From the NCBI GenBank assembly GCA_016879935.1, contig JAACJQ010000441.1, positions 1 through 47,646 of the forward strand: a stretch of 47,646 nt of DNA, in the 5' to 3' direction. Origin of the DNA: Archangiaceae bacterium. Its GTDB lineage: Bacteria; Myxococcota; Myxococcia; Myxococcales; Myxococcaceae. Numbering within the stretch: position 1 is the stretch's first letter; each line of letters starts with the position of its first letter. Positions 1,230 through 13,002 of the stretch are shown piece by piece. Below the pieces are notes generated by a model. That model searched no databases. It was not told where the DNA came from and worked only from the letters and a program-made list of their open reading frames with translations. The translations under genes and the position numbers were made by a program.

Positions 1230-3199
1230 GCCGCGCGCCCGGCGTGTTGTCGCGTGACGTGGCGGCGCTCTCGGCGTTCGGGGCGGTCGCCATCTCGGGC
1301 GTGTTGCCGCTGCCCATTCTCGTCATCTTCCCAGTCGTCTTCGTCGTCTCGCTGCTTGGCTACCGGCCGCTCGCGGGTCGGCGGGTCGCCAGCGTGATCG
1401 TGCTGCTGGCACTCGCGGTGCTGCTCTTCGGCTCGGTGTGGTTCTCGCTGCTCGATCTCGTGGTCGCGGCGGTGTCGTTCGCGACGCTGGTCACCTGCCA
1501 TCGCATGCTGGCGGAGCCGACGCCGCAGGCCTCGAGACAGGTGTTGCTGTCGGGCCTTCTGCTCGTCGCGGGTGGCGCGGCGCTCACCGGTGAAGCGCTG
1601 TTCGCGTTCTTGATGGTGGCCTTCTTCTTCGCGGCCTCGTGGTCGATGGCGTGGCTGGTGCTCGCGCGCGACGACGCCCAGCTCGAAGCGCCCGAACGAC
1701 GCGCGATCTCGCGGCAGCTGTTCTCTGGAGCCCTCGCCACCCTCGTGATGGGGCTGGTGTTCTTCGTGTTGTTTCCACGCCTGTCGTGGAACCTCGCAAA
1801 CCGTCGCAGCGCGGGTGGGCTCGGTGGCGTCACCGGCATGTCCGAGACCGTGAAGCTCGGCGGCGGCGGCGACATCAAGACGAGCGCGCGCGTCGCGTCT
1901 CGCGTCACCCTCGCACCAGAGCCGGGCGTCGAGCAGCTCAACGGCTATTTCGTCGGGCGGCACTTCGATGCGTTCGACGGCCTCGAGTGGAAGTCGACAG
2001 GCAAGGCAGGGGCGCCGCAGGGCTGGGTCAACCTTCGACACGCAGGTCGGCGGCTCAAGACCGTCACGCAGGAGTACGAGCTGACCGCAGCCTACGGCAG
2101 CCGAACCCTCGTCGCGCTCGACACGCCCACCACGTTCACGCGCGCGAGGGCCATCAACCTGTCGGGCCCGCAGCAACTGCCGCTCATTCACGTGCCCGAC
2201 GACCAGGTCTTCGGCACCCTCGACGGCAACGTCATCACCTACACCGCGAACAGCGATCTTGCGCCGCAGGTCGATCGCGCCGCGCCCAGCGCCGCCTCGT
2301 CACAGACGCCACCTGCGCTCGACGCGCGCATCGCGCAGCTGGCCGACGAGATCGTCGCGGGCTCGACCGATCAGCTCGCCATCGCCAACAAGCTCGAGGC
2401 GCAGCTCAAGCAGCGCTACGCGTACACGCTCGATCTGCCGGGCGCCGTGACCGACCCGCTCGCCGACTTCCTCTTCGTGCGCCGCGCGGGCCACTGTGAA
2501 GACTTCGCCACCGCGCTCGCGGTGATGCTGCGGCTCAAGGGCATTCCCAGCCGCGTGGTGACGGGCTTCTTCGGTGGAGAGCTCGTCGGCAACCGGTACG
2601 TCGTTCGTTCGGGCGATGCACACGCGTGGGTCGAAGCGTTCGTCGACGGCGCGTGGGTTCGCCTCGACGCCACACCCGATCTGGGCCGCTCTGCCTCGGG
2701 CAACCGGCTCGCTGCCGCCCTTGCAGGCGCGTGGGAGAAGCTCGAGGAGTGGTGGCGCTCCCGCGTCATCGACTACTCGTTCCAGGACCAGATCTCGTTC
2801 GCGCGCTCGATCGTGCGGCCGCCCCCACTGCCGCAGGAGGACCGGGCGACGGAGCCGACGGCCGACCGCCCCCAGGGGCTTCGTGTCGGGGTCGGTCTGC
2901 TCGGGCTCGCGCTGCTGGTGCTGGGACTCTGGCTGCGGCGGCAGACGGCGCCTCGGGCACACCCCGCCACCTCGTTCCTCGAGCAGATCGAGGCCAGGCT
3001 GAAGCTCGCGGGGGTCGCCCAGGTCGACGAGCTGCCGATCGAAGAGCTGTCGGCCTCGATGACCCGCGCCGCCCACCCCCTCGCTCCGGCCGTCGCTCGA
3101 GCGGCCCGCCGGTACCTCGAAGCGCGTTTCCAGGGGGCCGTGCTCGACGTGGGTGAGCAGGCGACACTCCTCGCGGCGCTACAATCGCCGCCCCGCTGA
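1226..3199 (+). CDS. TgpA-like membrane transglutaminase (DUF3488/transglutaminase/DUF4129)
   Basis: A 657-residue protein. Residues 1-190 hold about six hydrophobic segments. A periplasmic region follows, then a transglutaminase core with the catalytic triad visible: Cys424 in 'RRAGHCEDFA', His466 in 'GDAHAWVE' and Asp481 in 'RLDATP'. Another membrane helix lies near residues 555-572, followed by a short cytoplasmic tail of the DUF4129 type. The order matches TgpA of Pseudomonas, an inner-membrane protein with a periplasmic transglutaminase domain. It is coupled to the DUF58 gene by ATGA. The substrate cannot be told from the sequence. The frame continues to the TGA at 3197-3199. Confidence 0.92.
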   Translation: MSRAPGVLSRDVAALSAFGAVAISGVLPLPILVIFPVVFVVSLLGYRPLAGRRVASVIVLLALAVLLFGSVWFSLLDLVVAAVSFATLVTCHRMLAEPTPQASRQVLLSGLLLVAGGAALTGEALFAFLMVAFFFAASWSMAWLVLARDDAQLEAPERRAISRQLFSGALATLVMGLVFFVLFPRLSWNLANRRSAGGLGGVTGMSETVKLGGGGDIKTSARVASRVTLAPEPGVEQLNGYFVGRHFDAFDGLEWKSTGKAGAPQGWVNLRHAGRRLKTVTQEYELTAAYGSRTLVALDTPTTFTRARAINLSGPQQLPLIHVPDDQVFGTLDGNVITYTANSDLAPQVDRAAPSAASSQTPPALDARIAQLADEIVAGSTDQLAIANKLEAQLKQRYAYTLDLPGAVTDPLADFLFVRRAGHCEDFATALAVMLRLKGIPSRVVTGFFGGELVGNRYVVRSGDAHAWVEAFVDGAWVRLDATPDLGRSASGNRLAAALAGAWEKLEEWWRSRVIDYSFQDQISFARSIVRPPPLPQEDRATEPTADRPQGLRVGVGLLGLALLVLGLWLRRQTAPRAHPATSFLEQIEARLKLAGVAQVDELPIEELSASMTRAAHPLAPAVARAARRYLEARFQGAVLDVGEQATLLAALQSPPR

Positions 3200-3211
3200 C
3201 TCGGGTGTTGC

Positions 3212-3217
3212 TACGCT
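3212..3217 (+). promoter_or_regulatory. Candidate -10 element TACGCT for the Npt-HEAT gene
   Basis: TACGCT ends 7 nt before the GTG at 3225, which would place the transcript start at about 3224, so the mRNA would be essentially leaderless. A second hexamer, TACAAT, lies at 3180-3185. The spacing repeats at many gene starts in this window, and it is the main reason I prefer the 3225 start. Confidence 0.45.
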
Positions 3218-3224
3218 GCGCGCC

Positions 3225-6110
3225 GTGCTGCTGCGGATCCTCGAGGCCGTGCTCCCCGTACGACGAGGCGAACGGCAACTGACGTTCGCGTTGTTCCTGC
3301 ACAGCCTCTTCGCCGTCGGCTCGTTCCTGACCGGCCGCAGTGTTCGCGACGCGTTGTTCCTGGCGCATGGCGACCGTTCCCAGCTCGCGTGGATGTACGT
3401 GCTCTCGGCCGTCGCCGTCACGGCCACCGGGCTTGCGTATGGCCGCCTTGCGACGCGCGTTCGTCGCGATCTGATGGCGCTGGGCTCTGCGTCGACGTTC
3501 GCCCTGCTGTTCGGCCTGCTGTTCGTACTCGAGAGCAACCACCCGCCCTGGGTGTACTCGCTGATCTACGTCTCGGTCGAAGTCATGGGCGCGCTCGTGC
3601 TCGTGCAGTTCTGGACGCTCGCGAACGAGCTCTTCAACGCGCAGGAGGCCAAGCGGCTGTACGGCCTGATCGGCGCCGGAGGCACCTTCGCGAACATTCT
3701 CATCGGCCTGCTCTCGGCGAGGGTGGCGAAGACGTTCGGCACCAGTGCGCTGTTGATCATGTGTCTGGTCTTGCTCGGAGCGACGGCGGTGGCCTCGTTC
3801 TTCGCAGGGCGCCTCGGTCGTCAGCGCCTCTTCGCCAGGGCTGCCAGCGGAAAGCCGAGCGCTGCGAAACGAACCGGTGGCGCCGCGCGCGTCATGGCCG
3901 ACAGCCACCTTCGGACGGTGGCGTTGCTGGCCGCCGTCACCTTCTTCACCACCACGCTCGTCGACTTCGAGTTCAAGGTCGTGGCTGCCGACAAGGTGCC
4001 GACCGAAGAGCTCGCGGCGTACTTCGGGTACTTCAGCGCGGTCGTCGGCGTGCTCGCCCTCGGGCTCCAGCTCTTCGGCACCAGCCGACTCTTGAACCGC
4101 GCAGGCGTCGTCGGCTCACTCGCGGTGCTCCCGCTCTCGCTCACCCTGGGCAACGCGGCGCTGGTGCTCTTCCCCGCGCTGTGGGCTGCGTCGATCACCA
4201 AGGGCGCCGACACCCTCTTCCGCTACTCGGTGAACGACGCGACGACGCAGATCCTCTACCTGCCCGTGCCCTCGCAGGCGCGCGTCGCGGCCAAGGCCTT
4301 CATCGACGGCGTGGTGAAACCCACCGCCATCGGCCTCGCGGGCGTCACCTTGAAGCTCTGGGGCGTCTTCGTCGGCAAGGACCCGTACCGACTCGCCTGG
4401 ATCTCGCTGGTGCTGGGCGGGGCCTGGCTGGCGGTCGTCTCGAGCCTGCGCAGCCGCTACATCAAGACCCTCCAGGACAACCTCAAGAACCGGCGCCTCG
4501 ATCTGGCCGGCGCGCGGGTGAACGTCGTCGATGGGTCGACCAGCGGCGTGCTCGAGCGCGCCCTCGCCAGCGACGACACGCGCGAGGTGCTCAACGCGCT
4601 CGCCCTGCTGCCGCACCTCGAGAAGCTGTCGCTCGACATTCAGGTCGAGCGTCTGCTCGAGCACCCCGACTCCGAAGTGCGGGTGAAGGCGCTCGAGTAC
4701 TACGCCCACCGCCAGACGATGCGGTTCGCGAACTCGGTCTTCAGGCGCTTCGAAGATCCCGATCCCGCGGTGCGGGCGGCGGCCATCGATGCCTTCTGCG
4801 CCATCGGCCGTGACAAGGCCGTGAAGAGCGTTCGGATGTTCCTGCAGGACGCCGACCCGCGCATTCGCAGCGCCGCAGTGACGGGCATGATCCGTTACGG
4901 CGGGCTCGACGGCGTGCTCGTGGCGGCCGAGGCGCTCAAGGCCCTCATCGACAACACCGACAACGTCATGCGCCTGCACGCGGCGAAGGTGCTCGGCGCG
5001 ATCGGCGTGACGAACTTCTACCAGCCGGTGCTGCAGTTGATGAGCGACCCAGACCCGCGCGTTCGCCGGGCGGCGGTCACTGCGGCTGGGCAGCTCAAGA
5101 GCGCCGAGTTCGTCATTCCCCTCATCTACCGAACGCAGAGCCACGAGACGGCGCGTGAAGCCACCGACGCGCTCACGAACTTCGGCGTCGCCATCGTGCC
5201 AACGCTGGCCAAGGTGCTCGGCAATCAGCTGGAAGACGCGAACATCAGACGTTCGGTCGCGCGCGTGCTCGGGCGGGTCGGCACCAACGAGGCCATCGAC
5301 GTCATCACCCAGCACCTCTCGGAGCCCGACGAGGAACTGCGTGGCCGCCTCTACAAAGCGCTCGCCCGCACGGTGAAGGGGCGGCGGCTCGTGCTGAAGG
5401 ACAAGGCGCCGGTGCGCGCGGCGCTCGATCGCGAGCTCGCGCGTGCGTGGAAGGCGCTCCATCAGGCCGAGGTGCTCGGGCTCGCGGGTGGGCCTGCTGC
5501 GTCGACGCCGAGAACGGGAGAACCCGCCGCCCGCGCGCTGCTCGCCTCGGCGCTGACGGAGAAGGTGTCGCAGATCGAGGGGCGCCTCTTTCTGCTGCTG
5601 GCCGTGCTCTACCCTGACGCCGACATGGAGCAGATCTCAGCGGGCATTCGAGACGCGCTCGCCGCCGACGCCGCGCGCCGCCGTGGCAACGCGGTCGAGC
5701 TGCTCGACAACCTGCTCGACCGCGAGCTCAAGGGCCGCTTCCTGCCGCTGCTCGTCGAGCAGCCCCGCGCCGAGAAGCTCAAGGCCGTCGCCGAGCTGTA
5801 CCCGCGCGCCGAAGGGCTCGACGCGAGAACGGCGCTGCTCGAGCTGGCCAGAGACGAAGTCGCCTGGGTGCGCGCCTGTGCGGTGTGGTGTTGCGCCGAG
5901 GCGAGCATCACCGTCGACGTGCGGCCGCCGACGCTCGAGGCCGCAGCCGGTGACGCCAACCCGATCGTCCGCGAGATCGCCTTTGCGACCCTGCGCACGG
6001 TCGACCCCGCGCGCGCGAAGGTGCTGGCCACGGAGCGCGAGTTCGACGACGCGCCCTTCGTTCAGCAGCAGCTCGACGCGATCAAGCAGGCTCCGTCAGG
6101 AGCCGCGTGA
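3225..6110 (+). CDS. Npt1/Npt2-type (ATP/ADP translocase-like) transporter fused to HEAT repeats
   Basis: A 961-residue protein from the GTG at 3225. An in-frame ATG at 3153 would add 24 low-complexity residues and overlap the previous gene by 47 bases, so I rejected it. Residues 1 to about 420 form a 12-helix MFS-type core that opens with 'VRRGERQ' and 'GRSVRDALFL', the start pattern of nucleotide-transporter-like proteins of delta-proteobacteria. From about residue 450 to 750 there are repeated HEAT helices such as 'DPDPAVRAAAIDAF', 'DADPRIRSAAVTGM' and 'DPDPRVRRAAVTAA'. A less regular helical tail runs to the end. The classic members import ATP in intracellular parasites; the substrate of free-living, HEAT-fused forms is not known. 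The HEAT part should be cytoplasmic and may bind a partner. Confidence 0.85.
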   Translation: MLLRILEAVLPVRRGERQLTFALFLHSLFAVGSFLTGRSVRDALFLAHGDRSQLAWMYVLSAVAVTATGLAYGRLATRVRRDLMALGSASTFALLFGLLFVLESNHPPWVYSLIYVSVEVMGALVLVQFWTLANELFNAQEAKRLYGLIGAGGTFANILIGLLSARVAKTFGTSALLIMCLVLLGATAVASFFAGRLGRQRLFARAASGKPSAAKRTGGAARVMADSHLRTVALLAAVTFFTTTLVDFEFKVVAADKVPTEELAAYFGYFSAVVGVLALGLQLFGTSRLLNRAGVVGSLAVLPLSLTLGNAALVLFPALWAASITKGADTLFRYSVNDATTQILYLPVPSQARVAAKAFIDGVVKPTAIGLAGVTLKLWGVFVGKDPYRLAWISLVLGGAWLAVVSSLRSRYIKTLQDNLKNRRLDLAGARVNVVDGSTSGVLERALASDDTREVLNALALLPHLEKLSLDIQVERLLEHPDSEVRVKALEYYAHRQTMRFANSVFRRFEDPDPAVRAAAIDAFCAIGRDKAVKSVRMFLQDADPRIRSAAVTGMIRYGGLDGVLVAAEALKALIDNTDNVMRLHAAKVLGAIGVTNFYQPVLQLMSDPDPRVRRAAVTAAGQLKSAEFVIPLIYRTQSHETAREATDALTNFGVAIVPTLAKVLGNQLEDANIRRSVARVLGRVGTNEAIDVITQHLSEPDEELRGRLYKALARTVKGRRLVLKDKAPVRAALDRELARAWKALHQAEVLGLAGGPAASTPRTGEPAARALLASALTEKVSQIEGRLFLLLAVLYPDADMEQISAGIRDALAADAARRRGNAVELLDNLLDRELKGRFLPLLVEQPRAEKLKAVAELYPRAEGLDARTALLELARDEVAWVRACAVWCCAEASITVDVRPPTLEAAAGDANPIVREIAFATLRTVDPARAKVLATEREFDDAPFVQQQLDAIKQAPSGAA

Positions 6111-6111
6111 C

Positions 6112-6390
6112 TCAGCTCTTGAACGTCGCGACCAGCACCCAGACGCCGATCACCAGAAAGGCCACGCCCGCCAGCCGCTGCAGCGTGAGGGGAGCGATGA
6201 CGCGGCTGAGCGCTTCTCCCGCCACCACAGCGATGGCCGAGGTCGCCACCAGGGCGAGCGCCGAGCCGACGAAGACCGACAGCCGCGACTGCCCTGAGCT
6301 GGCGAACGAGAGGGTGGCGAGCTGGGTCTTGTCTCCCAGCTCGGCGACGAAGACCGCGAGGAACGTGGTGCCGACGAGCTTCCAGTCCAT
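6112..6390 (-). CDS. Half-size Gdt1/UPF0016 (TMEM165-like) cation transporter
   Basis: A 92-residue membrane protein with three predicted helices and one copy of the family motif E-x-G-D-K-T (residues 17-22). The family exports or imports Mn2+ or Ca2+. Full-size members carry two such halves, so a single-repeat form must pair with itself or with a second half-size protein. No second half-size gene is adjacent. It runs against the Npt-HEAT gene with a one-base gap between stops, and it diverges from the cyclic-nucleotide-binding gene. A weak -10-like TAGAGC lies just upstream of the ATG at 6390. Confidence 0.88.
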   Translation of the reverse strand: MDWKLVGTTFLAVFVAELGDKTQLATLSFASSGQSRLSVFVGSALALVATSAIAVVAGEALSRVIAPLTLQRLAGVAFLVIGVWVLVATFKS

Positions 6391-6441
6391 GCGGTGGCTC
6401 TACGACCTCACTGCCGACGATGCACGCACGAAGGCCCGCGC

Positions 6442-6447
6442 TATGCT
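6442..6447 (+). promoter_or_regulatory. Candidate -10 element TATGCT for the cNMP-binding gene
   Basis: TATGCT lies 18 nt before the ATG at 6466, so the leader would be about 12 nt. It has the same GCTAnnCT form as the hexamers seen before several other starts in this window. Confidence 0.4.
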
Positions 6448-6465
6448 GCGCCGCCGCAGGCGCTC

Positions 6466-6879
6466 ATGATCTCCACCGTCGAGAAGGTGCTCTTCCTCAA
6501 GTCGATCGACCTCTTCTCCCAGATTCCCGGAGAAGATCTGACCGCCGTCGCGCTCATCTCGAGCGAAGAGCGCCGCGATCAGGGCGACGAGATCTTCGCC
6601 GAGGGTGAAGCAGGCGACGCGCTGTACCTCGTCATCGACGGCAAGGTGCGCGTTCACAAGCAAGACCGGGTGATCGCCGAGCTCGGAGAGCGCGAGTGTT
6701 TCGGCGAGATGGCCATTCTCGACGCCGCGCCCCGCTCGGCGACCGTCACCGCGCTCGACGAAACGGCGCTGCTCAAGATCACCCGGGAAGACTTCCAGGA
6801 GATCATGACCGAGAAGCCCGAGATCGCGATGGGCATCATCAAGGTGCTCACGCGCCGCCTGCGCGACGCGATTCGGTAG
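6466..6879 (+). CDS. Single-domain cyclic-nucleotide-binding protein
   Basis: A 137-residue protein made almost entirely of one cNMP-binding domain. The ATG at 6466 is preferred to the in-frame one at 6394 because the added residues are low complexity and the -10 element would then lie inside the gene. The phosphate-binding cassette is intact: 'FGEMA' at 79-83 and 'PRSATVTA' with Arg90. This supports real binding of cAMP or cGMP. There is no DNA-binding domain, so it is not a CRP-type regulator; it more likely acts as a regulatory subunit or signalling adaptor. The next two genes are signalling-like proteins, and a cyclase gene lies at 31431-33971. Confidence 0.9.
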   Translation: MISTVEKVLFLKSIDLFSQIPGEDLTAVALISSEERRDQGDEIFAEGEAGDALYLVIDGKVRVHKQDRVIAELGERECFGEMAILDAAPRSATVTALDETALLKITREDFQEIMTEKPEIAMGIIKVLTRRLRDAIR

Positions 6880-6944
6880 CCCGCACAGGTGGGCAGAGGT
6901 CACACCCCTCGCGAACGCGAACGCGCGCCCTCGCCTGCCAGCGC

Positions 6945-6950
6945 TACACT
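6945..6950 (+). promoter_or_regulatory. Candidate -10 element TACACT for the helical-repeat gene
   Basis: TACACT ends 8 nt before the ATG at 6959. The predicted transcript start is at about 6957, so the mRNA would have almost no leader. No Shine-Dalgarno sequence is visible before this start. Confidence 0.5.
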
Positions 6951-6958
6951 CGCGCGCC

Positions 6959-8734
6959 ATGGCACAACCAGCGGCAGCTTCGTTGGCTCCGGGAGGCGAC
7001 GCGCCTCCCGACCCGATGTCGGATCCCAAGGTCAAGAAGCAGGTCGAGGTCGCGCGCAGCGTCGCGTACCACCTGCTCAAGGGCATCAAGATGATCGGCA
7101 TGTACCGCCACAACGAGTCGAAATACGGCGAGTACCTGACCAAGGCGCACATCGCGTTGACCCAGTACCTCGAAGAGTTCGGCGTGCTTCAGCTGAAGGT
7201 CGACGTCACCAACTTCCAGCTCTTCAAGCAGGACCTGTTCAGCGAAGACAGCCAGCTGCCCTACAAGTTCTTCAAAGACGGCATTCGGCAGCTCATGTTC
7301 CGGCCGGGCTTCACGGTCGAAGAGCTCACGGCGTTCACCGTCATCTCGCTCTCTGATCCCGACCGCGGCGCCGAAGATCTGAACGCGCAGCTGTGGCGCG
7401 CGCAGATGCCGCACTTCGAATACATCATGGTCGAAGGCTTCCGCATGGACGAGTTCTCCGAAGAGGAGGTCCAGGTCGAGGTCGACAAGGTGGTCGACTA
7501 CCTGCAGCGCCGCCTGCGCACGGCGAGCGACGACTTCCTCCGGTTCGCTCGCGTCACCGAAGAAGATCTCGAGATGAAGCTCGACAACGTCGAGCAGATG
7601 CGTGGCGTGGTGATCACTGGCGTCACGGCCGACGCGACGTTCAAGGCCCGCACCCAGAAGGACATTCACGACGAAGAGAACCAGCGCCTCTTCCCCAAGC
7701 TCATCAGCGCCGTCTTCCAGGTCGTCGAGAGCGGCGTCGACGACGCCGAGCTGCTCACCGACATGTTCACGCAGCTGCTCGACGCGATGTTGCTGCAGGA
7801 AGACTTCACGATCATCAACCAGGTCGTGCTCAAGCTCAAAGCCATGGAGCAGCGCGCCGGCTCCGACAGCGCCATCGGCCGGCTGCTCCGCAACTTCGTG
7901 GCGCGCATGGGCGAAGAGCAGCGCGTCGGCCGCGTGGCCGACATCATCAAGTTCACGCGGCTCAAGAACCCGCAAGACATCGTGCGCTACTTGTCGAACC
8001 TGGGCGCCGACTGCGTGCCGCTGCTGCTCGACGCGCTCGAGGTGATCGAGCTGCCCGAGAACCGCACGCTCCTGTGCGACGTCATGATTCCCTTCGCGAA
8101 GGATCTACCCGACCCCTTCGTGAACCGGCTCCAGAGCGACAAGCCGCAGGTCGTTCGCGACATGATCTACGTGCTCGACCGGGCGAACCACCCCGAGAAG
8201 CTCAAGTTCTTCTCGACGGTGCTGCGCTCGAAGAACCTCGCGGTGAAGCTCGAGGTGATGAGCATCATCGCGCGTGGCCGCACCGGCGAGGCGCGCAAGC
8301 TGATCGCGGCGATGCTCGAAGACGACACCCAGCAGGTGCGCATTCAGGCCGCACGCGTGCTGCCCGAGTTCGATCGCGAGAAGGCCTTCCTCGATCTGAT
8401 GAAGCTCGTGAAAGACCCGTCGTTCGAGAAGCGCTCACCCGCCGAACACGAGGCGCTCTACTCGGCCATCGGCTCGACCGGCGTGAACGGCGCGATCGCG
8501 TACTTCACGCAGCTGCTGCAGGTGAAGGCGGGGCTCTTCAACAAAGAGAAGGTGAAGCAGGACAAGATCCTCGCGGTGGCGGGGCTTGGCGGCGCTTGCA
8601 ACATCCAGACGGCGAAGCTGCTGCAGGAGCTGCTCGAGGACAAATCGCAGCCGCCCGAAGTGCACAACCACGCCAGGCTGCACCTGGGGCGCGTTCGCAA
8701 AGCGCTGTTCGGCAACCCCGACAAGGAGGCCTGA
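6959..8734 (+). CDS. HEAT-like repeat protein with a module shared with the next gene
   Basis: A 591-residue soluble protein of no named family that I recognise. Residues 25-135 form a module that resembles the N-terminus of the next protein: a helix with 'GIKMIGMYRHN', a strand region 'FGVLQLKVDVTNFQL', then a helix and 'FRPGFTVEELTAFTVI'. The middle (about 140-330) is acidic and helical. From about 340 to 580 there are helical HEAT-like repeats such as 'QVVRDMIYVLDRANHPEKLKFF' and 'QQVRIQAARVLPEFDREKAF'. The next gene starts 3 nt after the stop, so the two form an operon. Function unknown; the context suggests signalling or scaffolding. Confidence 0.82.
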   Translation: MAQPAAASLAPGGDAPPDPMSDPKVKKQVEVARSVAYHLLKGIKMIGMYRHNESKYGEYLTKAHIALTQYLEEFGVLQLKVDVTNFQLFKQDLFSEDSQLPYKFFKDGIRQLMFRPGFTVEELTAFTVISLSDPDRGAEDLNAQLWRAQMPHFEYIMVEGFRMDEFSEEEVQVEVDKVVDYLQRRLRTASDDFLRFARVTEEDLEMKLDNVEQMRGVVITGVTADATFKARTQKDIHDEENQRLFPKLISAVFQVVESGVDDAELLTDMFTQLLDAMLLQEDFTIINQVVLKLKAMEQRAGSDSAIGRLLRNFVARMGEEQRVGRVADIIKFTRLKNPQDIVRYLSNLGADCVPLLLDALEVIELPENRTLLCDVMIPFAKDLPDPFVNRLQSDKPQVVRDMIYVLDRANHPEKLKFFSTVLRSKNLAVKLEVMSIIARGRTGEARKLIAAMLEDDTQQVRIQAARVLPEFDREKAFLDLMKLVKDPSFEKRSPAEHEALYSAIGSTGVNGAIAYFTQLLQVKAGLFNKEKVKQDKILAVAGLGGACNIQTAKLLQELLEDKSQPPEVHNHARLHLGRVRKALFGNPDKEA

Positions 8735-8737
8735 GCC

Positions 8738-10054
8738 ATGGCCGAGAACCTTCAGATCGCGAAAGCGTCGACCGGCGACAGCGAGCTGCTCGACAGCTAC
8801 GGCCGAGAGCACAGCGAAAAGCTGCAGGGCATGGCGCGCTCGCTCGTGTCGGCGCTCTACATGCTGATTCGCTCGGTGAAGATGTACGACCCCGACAACA
8901 CGGTCTTCGACAAGCCGCTCAGCCAGCTTCAGGACAACATCAACCAGATCATCCGCAAGGAGGGAAAGCTCGAGCTCATGGGCATCAAGCAGTCGTTCTA
9001 TTTGAACGGCATGCTCGTGAAGGTCGACATGGCCTCGCTCGACAACGTGAAGTACCTGCTCGAAGAAATGCGCGGGAAGGACGTGGGCGGCTTCACCATG
9101 CTGCGCACGACCTCGATCGCCGAGCTCAAGAACTTCATCTGGATCTTCTCGAAGGAGCAGACCGACCTCGCGAACGAGGACGGCACCGACGGCAAGAAGC
9201 TCGTCTCGATGAAGCTGGCGAAGTGGTCGAAGCTCAAAGACAAGCTCGAGAATGAGAAGGACGAGAGCGAAGCGAAGCTCGATCGCAAGAAGTACGCGCT
9301 GACCTGCTACGGCCGCGCGATCTTCTTCACCAAGAAGTACATGGAGTCGCTGCGCAACGACAACCCGCTGAACACGTCGAAGTCGCTGCGCATTCTGCAG
9401 GACTTCGTCGACATCTCGATGGACCACCGCACGCACTTCCTCGGTCTGACGACGACGAAGACGGACAGCGAGTACCTCGCGTACCACCAGGTCAACACGT
9501 GCCTGATGTCGATCGTCTTCGGCAACGAGCTCGGCCTCACCAAGCCGCAGCTTCGCGACCTCGGCTACATCGCGCTCTTCCACGACGCCGGCATGGGCAC
9601 GGTGCCCGACAACCTGCTCAACAAACGCGGCTCGCTCACGCCCGACGAGAAGGCCCTCATCGCCCGCGCGCCCCTCATCTCGGTGCGCAACATTCTTCGA
9701 GAGAAGGCGATCAACCGCTCCACCCTGCTCCGCCTGGTGACGACGTTCGAGCACAAGGTCGAGTTCGGCACCGCCGTGCGCGACGGCCAGGGCAACATTC
9801 AGATGATCATTCCCAAGGCCAACCTCGGCCTCTACGCGAAGATCATCTCGATCTGCGCCACCTACGACGCGTTGACGTCGAAGCGCGCGTTCCGCGACTC
9901 GTACGGCCCCGAGGTCGCGCTGATGCTGATGTGGACCGAGATGCGCAACAAGTTCGATCCCGATCTGCTCCGCATCTTCATGCGCGTGATGGCGATTCAG
10001 CCGATCAAAGTGCTGACGAAGCGGCAGCAGTCGTTGTCGATCGGCCTCATCTGA
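8738..10054 (+). CDS. Degenerate HD-GYP protein with a shared N-terminal module
   Basis: A 438-residue protein started by an ATG with an AAGGAGG ribosome site at the expected distance. Residues 30-125 form the module shared with the previous protein ('SVKMYDPDN', 'GKLELMGIKQSFYLNG'). Residues about 245-430 align with HD-GYP phosphodiesterases. His250 and the His282-Asp283 pair ('FHDAG') remain, and the later 'CATYDALTSKRAFRDSYGPE' block is clear. The HHExxDGxGYP loop is replaced by 'FEHKVEFG' (His339) and has no GYP. True HD-GYP enzymes cleave cyclic di-GMP; loss of this loop predicts a binding-only or altered protein. It ends 6 bases from the convergent rluD stop. Confidence 0.85.
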   Translation: MAENLQIAKASTGDSELLDSYGREHSEKLQGMARSLVSALYMLIRSVKMYDPDNTVFDKPLSQLQDNINQIIRKEGKLELMGIKQSFYLNGMLVKVDMASLDNVKYLLEEMRGKDVGGFTMLRTTSIAELKNFIWIFSKEQTDLANEDGTDGKKLVSMKLAKWSKLKDKLENEKDESEAKLDRKKYALTCYGRAIFFTKKYMESLRNDNPLNTSKSLRILQDFVDISMDHRTHFLGLTTTKTDSEYLAYHQVNTCLMSIVFGNELGLTKPQLRDLGYIALFHDAGMGTVPDNLLNKRGSLTPDEKALIARAPLISVRNILREKAINRSTLLRLVTTFEHKVEFGTAVRDGQGNIQMIIPKANLGLYAKIISICATYDALTSKRAFRDSYGPEVALMLMWTEMRNKFDPDLLRIFMRVMAIQPIKVLTKRQQSLSIGLI

Positions 10055-11265: not shown

Positions 11266-13002
11266 TCAACCTTTCGACTTGGCGAGGTGCGCCTCGACGA
11301 AGGTCAAATAGCTCTTCGAGACGCGGAGGCCATCGAGCCCCAGCTCCCGTGCGACGCTCATGAGCATGCCACGCAGGTAGACCATCGCGGGCAGCTGTTC
11401 GTAGCGGTCGTTCTCGAGGTTCTCGATGTGGCGAACACCGATGCGTGTGCGCTCTGAGAGCTGAAGCAACGACAGACCGCGTGCCATGCGTACCTGGCGC
11501 AGGAGATCGCCATTGAACTCGACCCCGGCGGGCACTTCGTAGGGCTTCGGGCGCTCGGGCGCCTTGTACTCGCGGGGAGCGAACGGGCGCGTGGGGACGA
11601 TGGCGGTCGATTCGCCATCTCCGACCTCGGGCGGTTCAACGCGGGTTGCGAGTTCGTCGGGACGCTTCTCGGACTCAGCAGCCTGCTTTTCAGCGGCGTC
11701 ACGCTCGGCCTTCTCAGCCGCAGCCTGTTCCGCAGCCTTCTCTGCAGCGGCTTTCTCAGCAGCCTCCCGTTCGGCCTTCTCGGTTGCTTCGCGTTCGGCC
11801 TTCTCGAGCGCGTCCCATTCCGCCTTTTCGGCAGCGGCTTTTTCGGCAGCGGCTTTTTCGGCAGCGGCTTTTTCGGCAGCGGCTTTTTCGGCAGCGGCTC
11901 TTTCGGCAGCGGCCTTCTCAGCTGCGGCCCTTTCAGTCGCTTCGCGTTCCGCCTTCTCGAGGGCCTCCCACTCGGCCTTCTCAGCTGCTTCGCGAGCAGC
12001 CCTCTCGGCAGCCGCTTTCTCAGCCGCCGCTTTCTCAGCAGCCGCTTTCTCAGCAGCCGCCTTCTCAGCAGCCGCCTTCTCAGCAGCCGCCTTCTCAGCA
12101 GCCGCCTTCTCAGCAGCCGCCTTCTCAGCAGCCGCCTTCTCAGCGGCCGCCTTCTCAGCAGCTTCCTGTTCCGCTTTCTCGAGCGCTTCCCACTCGGCCT
12201 TCTCGGCTGCTTCGCGAGCCACTCTTTCAGCAGCCGCCTTCTCCGCCGCGGCCTTCTCAGTGGCTTCGCGCTCCGCCCGCTCGAGGGCTTCCCACTCCGC
12301 CTTCTCAGCAGCCTCACGCGCGGCCTTCTCAGCTGCCTCGCGCTCAGCCCGCTCCGCTGCTTCCCGTTCAGCCTTCTCTGCAGCTTCCCGTTCAGCCTTC
12401 TCTGCAGCTTCCTTTTCCGCCTTCTTCGCCTTCTTCGCGGCTCTCTCGGCAGCGGCTCGTTCCCGCTCCGCATCCTCGCGCGCCTTTTCAGCAGCGGCCC
12501 GCTCAGCGGCTTCCTGCTCCGCCTTCAGCGCCGCCGCCTTCTCAGCCGCAGCGCGCTCGGCAGCCGACTGGTCATTCGACCTGATAGGAACCGTGAAGCC
12601 CGACGACGGAGCCTGCGTGGTGATCGTGTAGCTGAACCCACTCGACGCAGGCGCTGCCGGAGTCGAGCTCACGAACGCGTACGAGCCGCTCCACGCGGGC
12701 GCGGCTCCGGTCTGCGGCAGCGTCGGCGCAACGCGCTTCCTGGGTGCGCCCTCTCTCGGAGGCAGCCCGATCTTCGCGTCGTACGTCGCTCGACGCTCCT
12801 CATCGAGGAGCACGTCGACAGCCTCTTTCAGCCGGGTTCGCAGCGCACGCGCGCGGCCCTCATCGATGAGGCCGTACAGCGCCGCCTGATCCTCCGAGTA
12901 CAACCGCGAAAGCCGATCGAACGCCGCTCGAATGTCGGCATCAGATGCCCCGACGGACACCTCGAGCAGCTCGTAGAACGTCTGAGACTGGAACGACTTC
13001 AC
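11266..13002 (-). CDS. J-like domain / AAAEK coiled coil / RodZ-type HTH protein
   Basis: A 578-residue protein of three parts. Residues 6-76 look like a J domain ('FYELLEVSVGASDADIRAAFDRL' onward, ending 'DEERRATYDAKIG'), but the HPD tripeptide is absent ('RLYSEDQ' in its place), so it should not stimulate DnaK in the usual way. Residues about 150-430 are Ala/Glu/Lys pentapeptide repeats likely to form one long helix, similar in style to TolA. Residues about 490-575 carry an HTH of the RodZ type ('VRMARGLSLLQLSERTRIGVRHIENLE'). RodZ is membrane-anchored with the HTH first; here the HTH is last and no membrane helix is seen. It overlaps the MinD-like gene by ATGA, which suggests a working pair. 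Confidence 0.85.
   Translation of the reverse strand: MKSFQSQTFYELLEVSVGASDADIRAAFDRLSRLYSEDQAALYGLIDEGRARALRTRLKEAVDVLLDEERRATYDAKIGLPPREGAPRKRVAPTLPQTGAAPAWSGSYAFVSSTPAAPASSGFSYTITTQAPSSGFTVPIRSNDQSAAERAAAEKAAALKAEQEAAERAAAEKAREDAERERAAAERAAKKAKKAEKEAAEKAEREAAEKAEREAAERAEREAAEKAAREAAEKAEWEALERAEREATEKAAAEKAAAERVAREAAEKAEWEALEKAEQEAAEKAAAEKAAAEKAAAEKAAAEKAAAEKAAAEKAAAEKAAAEKAAAEKAAAERAAREAAEKAEWEALEKAEREATERAAAEKAAAERAAAEKAAAEKAAAEKAAAEKAAAEKAEWDALEKAEREATEKAEREAAEKAAAEKAAEQAAAEKAERDAAEKQAAESEKRPDELATRVEPPEVGDGESTAIVPTRPFAPREYKAPERPKPYEVPAGVEFNGDLLRQVRMARGLSLLQLSERTRIGVRHIENLENDRYEQLPAMVYLRGMLMSVARELGLDGLRVSKSYLTFVEAHLAKSKG
11823..11930 (-). repeat. 15-bp tandem repeat coding for AAAEK units (block A)
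   Basis: About seven head-to-tail copies of a 15-bp unit (plus-strand form TTTTTCGGCAGCGGC). The first copies are identical and later ones drift. Each unit encodes five residues of the Ala/Lys/Glu helix, so the reading frame survives gain or loss of copies. Confidence 0.85.
12001..12165 (-). repeat. 15-bp tandem repeat coding for AAAEK units (block B)
   Basis: About eleven copies of a second 15-bp unit (plus-strand form CTTCTCAGCAGCCGC), with six or more in a row identical. It codes for the same pentapeptide as block A but uses different codons, so the two blocks expanded independently. The copy number probably varies between strains. Confidence 0.88.

Follow-up and report, generated by a model that had tools for sequence, protein, structure and literature searches.

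A Myxococcota gene pair encoding a HEAT-repeat protein and a degenerate HD-GYP protein with homologous N-terminal modules

We analysed a 47,646-nucleotide stretch of an Archangiaceae bacterium genome (contig JAACJQ010000441.1, assembly GCA_016879935.1; hereafter the window) and found that two of its genes, here called B and C, are a Myxococcota gene pair whose products, a HEAT-repeat protein and a protein with a degenerate HD-GYP domain, have an N-terminal module in common. The domain types of B and C are already known, but the module is undescribed, having no Pfam or NCBIfam model. We lean towards a reading in which B and C would form a docked complex, with C as a nonhydrolytic receptor and B as an adaptor, in a kinase pathway. 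An earlier, sequence-only reading had placed three open reading frames (ORFs) here, a cyclic nucleotide monophosphate (cNMP)-binding protein (gene A) with an intact cassette followed by B with HEAT repeats and C with an HD domain, and Pfam matches agree with all three assignments. To our knowledge there is no earlier example of the B-C arrangement. We found no paper on the pair; the Che7 HEAT protein of M. xanthus (PMC9040617) lay outside our comparison with B.

The common module and the pairing of B and C

A likeness of the two N-termini over about 100 residues had been proposed from the sequence alone. BLASTP of the window's B against its C gave an insignificant E of 0.18, and profiles of close orthologues gave P 0.018; the two sequences and these profiles are thus too weak alone, and diverse family members are needed. 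When 34-36 distant members were added per family (62 sequences used for B; effective number of sequences 5-6), hhalign aligned residues 29-132 of B with 30-139 of C, collinearly and with few gaps, at P 8.2e-10 and a probability of 96.5%, which bears the proposal out; controls with one profile reversed or with other domains as partner gave P 0.2-0.3 (0.26 for the reversed profile). Hidden Markov models also matched across the families (C module on B protein, 5e-4; B module on C protein, 2e-4), in two distant genomes and one more. AlphaFold models from separately built alignments predict, with good confidence, one order of elements for both modules, helix-helix-strand-strand-helix-strand-helix: in C, helices 27-47 and 55-75, strands 78-83 and 86-89, helix 98-113, strand 116-121 and helix 127-135; in B, helices 23-48 and 53-74, strands 77-81 and 86-88, helix 100-106, strand 109-114 and helix 120-131. 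The predicted local distance difference test (pLDDT) score of the B module is mostly 84-95 to about residue 130 (AlphaFold2), and past the module the B model has one more strand and helix, up to residue 186. In a FastTree tree of 146 modules, all 72 from B are split from all 74 from C with a support of 0.999, a split favoured by the input, in which B and C alignments made apart were later merged. We thus conclude that the module common to B and C is real.

Neither Pfam (E up to 1) nor NCBIfam (E up to 0.1) gave a match in the module region of either protein, searching PDB sequences with the C module returned chance matches only (best E 0.2), and a plasmid search with the module and middle region of B returned no match; the Foldseek and VIA-align results for C cover its HD domain only (model 181-430), with the module outside. 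With broad module profiles in eight genomes, modules were found only in matching neighbouring B and C proteins, in one B protein with no C downstream (L143, near a contig start) and in one fused protein, from the window's own genome, and two of the eight had neither. Because our searches covered Myxococcota genomes and other phyla lay outside them, the module may be commoner than it appears here.

Relatives, too, have B and C side by side, as the sequence-only reading expected. B lies upstream of C in 37 of 37 related loci that have upstream sequence, with a spacing of mostly 1-7 bases (3 bases between the B stop and the C start in the window), and precedes C in every distant relative with room for it. 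Across 195 Myxococcota genomes, C is directly downstream of B on the same strand for 135 of the 139 B matches listed, a count that leaves out fused kinases and the last, unlisted matches; the remaining four sit at contig breaks, and in one of them (G108, L145) the contig edge still shows C. Where a C match had no listed B, B was present on inspection, except for two at contig ends (G016, G107). In the second B-C pair of genome G157 (L086), C is split over two frames with the module and the HD part apart, a frameshift or pseudogene, and at L143 a B gene (157-1965) is followed by NADH-dehydrogenase/formate-dehydrogenase-like genes.

Kinase fusions and a putative docked complex

Eleven fused ORFs in 10 genomes join the HEAT part of B to the C module, nearly all of them with an HD remnant, in one of two domain orders (kinase-HEAT-Cmodule-HD or kinase-Cmodule-HD-HEAT). 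A Pkinase domain was detected in 10 of these; the remaining one (L140) is truncated at its start by the end of the contig. The C module is present in all 11 and the B module in none, even with HMMER filters off, which is expected if the B module only serves docking. The system occurs twice more in the window's own genome, as a B'-C' pair with an upstream kinase gene (L079) and as a fusion of 1108 amino acids (L080) comprising kinase, C module, HD remnant and the HEAT part of B. At L146 (6310-8997), the C module and HD part are followed by a C-terminal protein kinase domain, and a separate B gene adjoins. Kinase genes also adjoin B-C on the same strand at six loci (L035, L079, L084, L086, L091, L114). 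The recurrent kinase link, which was unexpected and is not in the sequence-only reading, is visible only in relatives, and for it the fusions are stronger evidence than gene adjacency.

In the reading that we favour, B and C would be the subunits of a single signalling complex in the cytoplasm, encoded together in a tightly packed operon and probably docked through their homologous N-terminal modules, such that in a single-chain fusion the B module would be dispensable. A physical complex of B and C is probable, given the homology of the modules, the pairing of the genes and the fusions. B belongs to the HEAT-repeat proteins (HEAT_2, E 1.6e-11; a helical solenoid in the model, with pLDDT >90 across most of residues 331-586), repeat folds dominate its Foldseek matches, and its solenoid would serve as a protein-binding docking surface for output. 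A PknB-type Ser/Thr kinase would be the input or output of the wider family, the window pair being a version with an unlinked kinase; judged from the fusions and from the neighbours in relatives, the case for such coupling is evenly poised.

Alternatively, the module may be a ligand-binding or homodimerising input domain that acts separately in B and in C, the genes being neighbours only through a common pathway. The two well separated clades of B and C modules would fit this, as would the so far hypothetical nature of a module-module interface; however, the module is found almost only in paired genes, and the one-chain fusions retain the C module and show no B module, so that we regard this explanation as unlikely.

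The degenerate HD-GYP domain of C

C has an HD-GYP fold (HD_5, E 2.1e-11). Its best structural match is Bd1817 of Bdellovibrio bacteriovorus (PDB 3TM8/3TMB; VIA-align Z 19.5, 3.5 Å over 213 residues, model 181-419), and the active PmGH (4MCW), which with the RpfG-type phosphodiesterases belongs to the same domain family by sequence and fold, follows with a Z of 15.0 and a sequence-profile E of 1e-11. The metal ligands of PmGH are H189, H221, D222, H250, H276, H277 and D305 (PMC4159591), and C does not have the full set. Retained are the equivalents of H189 (H250 in C), H221/D222 (H282/D283) and H276 (H339), of which H250, H282 and D283 are nearly invariant in 38 orthologues. PmGH H250 and H277 are replaced by Ala311 and Lys340, and neither position is His in any of the 38; K225, a lysine that stabilises the centre, is replaced by Met286 (Met in 37 of 38), and D305 by Ala374 in the window (Asp in 17 of 38, Ala in half of the set). 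Since alanine mutants at PmGH H250 and H277 essentially abolished activity (PMC4159591), the absence of these essential ligands makes it very unlikely that C acts as a normal HD-GYP phosphodiesterase.

The HHExxDGxGYP motif is absent as well, as had been noted from the sequence and as the alignment bears out; EHKVEFGTAVRDGQGN stands in its place. The replacement loop equals or exceeds the remainder of the domain in conservation (mean majority fraction 0.84, and 0.88 in its C-terminal half), and R383 and R386, the equivalents of R314 and K317, which are basic positions contacting cyclic di-GMP (c-di-GMP) in PmGH, are invariant in orthologues; C has thus not simply decayed. Distant relatives with the same module (L099, L110, L091) retain almost all of the ligands as well as a GYP motif, and the C family thus includes active-looking as well as degenerate members. 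From the fold, the remodelled but conserved pocket and the two basic positions kept, C is probably a ligand sensor, with a cyclic dinucleotide as the first candidate, or a regulatory pseudoenzyme, in either case presumably without cyclic dinucleotide hydrolysis of a known type. Binding of a cyclic dinucleotide in particular is possible but rather doubtful.

C could still be catalytic, as an HD phosphohydrolase of changed specificity with a mono- or dinuclear centre, as the near-invariance of H250, H282 and D283, the Asp found at residue 374 in part of the orthologues, and the ligand sets with GYP of L099 and L110 might suggest. Against this, the two ligands essential to PmGH activity are gone from all 38 orthologues, the centre-stabilising lysine is Met in nearly all, and residue 374 is Ala in the window C and in half of the set; from these residues, continued catalysis appears distinctly improbable.

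A nonhydrolytic C would have parallels. We know of no HEAT partner or kinase link for Bd1817, which is alike in having an HD-GYP fold with a degenerate motif; its match leaves the C module (26-139) uncovered, and it retains a dinuclear iron centre, whereas C is without two of the metal-histidine positions. Bd1817 is inactive, with no phosphodiesterase activity (PMC4159591). Compared with the PmGH/RpfG type, C is without equivalents of H250, H277 and K225 and without GYP, and has the module in place of GAF or REC. SgmT of M. xanthus, in which a GGDEF domain, a degenerate c-di-GMP enzyme, serves as a receptor, offers a functional parallel as a catalytically dead fold used in signalling, but C has a different domain and a HEAT-protein partner, and its ligand is only a candidate. 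B resembles HEAT-repeat scaffold proteins (HEAT_2; alphaRep structures) over about residues 330-586, but also has the module, a middle region without a match, and C as its partner.

Several points weigh against the proposal of a docked B-C complex in a kinase pathway. The modules could each homodimerise or bind ligand, and the predicted template modelling scores are 0.51 for the C model and 0.56 for that of B. The B gene of L143 has no C downstream, on a contig that starts about 156 bases upstream of it. The window contains no kinase match, and its B-C pair has no kinase neighbour; kinases are numerous in myxobacteria, and their adjacency to B-C carries no chance estimate. Finally, PmGH lost little activity through the R314A and K317A mutations (PMC4159591), so that retention of R383 and R386 is weak evidence for binding. 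If the proposal is true, it would provide a testable function for an unnamed and almost always paired myxobacterial gene couple and would tie HD-GYP-type folds to Ser/Thr kinase signalling; the natural fusion series would be a test of a docking role of the module, and Myxococcus, which is readily accessible to genetics, has conserved B-C as a single copy. More tentatively, and at somewhat below even chances, Myxococcota may possess a hitherto undescribed three-part signalling system of Ser/Thr kinase, HEAT adaptor and pseudo-HD-GYP receptor, held together by a dedicated pair of homologous docking modules and present in three forms: an operon, a pair without the kinase (the window), and single-chain fusions minus one docking module.

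Gene A, transporter T and other features of the window

Of the paired complex proposed by the sequence-only reading, the B-C part stands as likely, from gene fusion and one-to-one pairing, and the inclusion of the cNMP protein does not. A has a cNMP domain (PF00027, E 8e-22) with an intact phosphate-binding cassette, FGEMAILDAAPRSATV. Within the genus to which the window belongs, and in some further Myxococcales (L115, L118), A immediately precedes B. It does not, however, belong to a conserved unit with B-C, as each occurs without the other: A adjoins T, a transporter gene, in genomes without a B match (L120-L127; such as G021, G022, G023, G024 and G027), the genome that contains the window also carries an ORF of 1015 amino acids (L119) joining an A-like domain to a T-like protein, and in Myxococcus, where B-C is present, A has no orthologue. 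A single nucleotide-responsive complex of all three proteins, with the cNMP protein as sensor, is hardly credible in the face of these arrangements, the adjacency of A to B notwithstanding.

A most likely lies outside the B-C system, and T is its likely true partner, the T-then-A arrangement of 3153-6879 recurring across Myxococcales. A resembles the C-terminal cNMP part of the TLC/MFS-HEAT-cNMP protein of L119, which is unrelated to B-C, and, with separate genes in the window, looks like a cNMP part that has become detached from the transporter protein. The T-A pair and its fused paralogue suggest a cyclic-nucleotide-controlled transporter. Long open frames around A had raised the possibility of a T-A fusion in L115 and L118, which we rejected as T and A are in different frames. 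A Ser/Thr kinase gene is just downstream of T-A in L128 and L130, in two genomes of one family.

Table 1. Positions of the genes, modules and sites discussed, in window coordinates.
Feature	Position	Strand	Description and basis
B	6959..8734	+	591 amino acids; N-terminal module, helical middle and HEAT repeats; ORF, HEAT_2 E 1.6e-11, conserved partner of C
B module	7031..7363	+	Residues 25-135; hhalign P 8.2e-10 to C module, AlphaFold2
HEAT-repeat part of B	7949..8716	+	Residues 331-586; part retained in kinase fusions
AAGGAGG ribosome-binding site of C	8723..8729	+	Inside end of B; read from sequence
C	8738..10054	+	438 amino acids; N-terminal module and degenerate HD-GYP domain; ORF, HD_5 E 2.1e-11, VIA-align
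C module	8813..9154	+	Residues 26-139; motif KMYDPDN
Degenerate HD-GYP domain of C	9269..9997	+	Residues 178-420; alignment to PmGH
Loop in place of HHExxDGxGYP in C	9743..9829	+	Family consensus TFEHKVDFGTAVRDGRGNIQMIIPKTNLG
A	6466..6879	+	Free-standing cNMP-binding protein; neighbour, judged not in B-C system
T	3153..6110	+	TLC/MFS transporter fused to HEAT repeats; Pfam TLC 2.4e-14, HEAT_2 1.6e-34

Elsewhere in the window, 11266-13002 on the minus strand encodes a protein with an extended region of EKAAAEKA repeats, the DNA of which contains tandem repeats of 15 and 24 bases. Judged by eye only, the N-terminus of this protein resembles a J-domain and its C-terminus a RodZ-like helix-turn-helix; in most relatives, its gene adjoins ParA/MinD-like and HNH genes.

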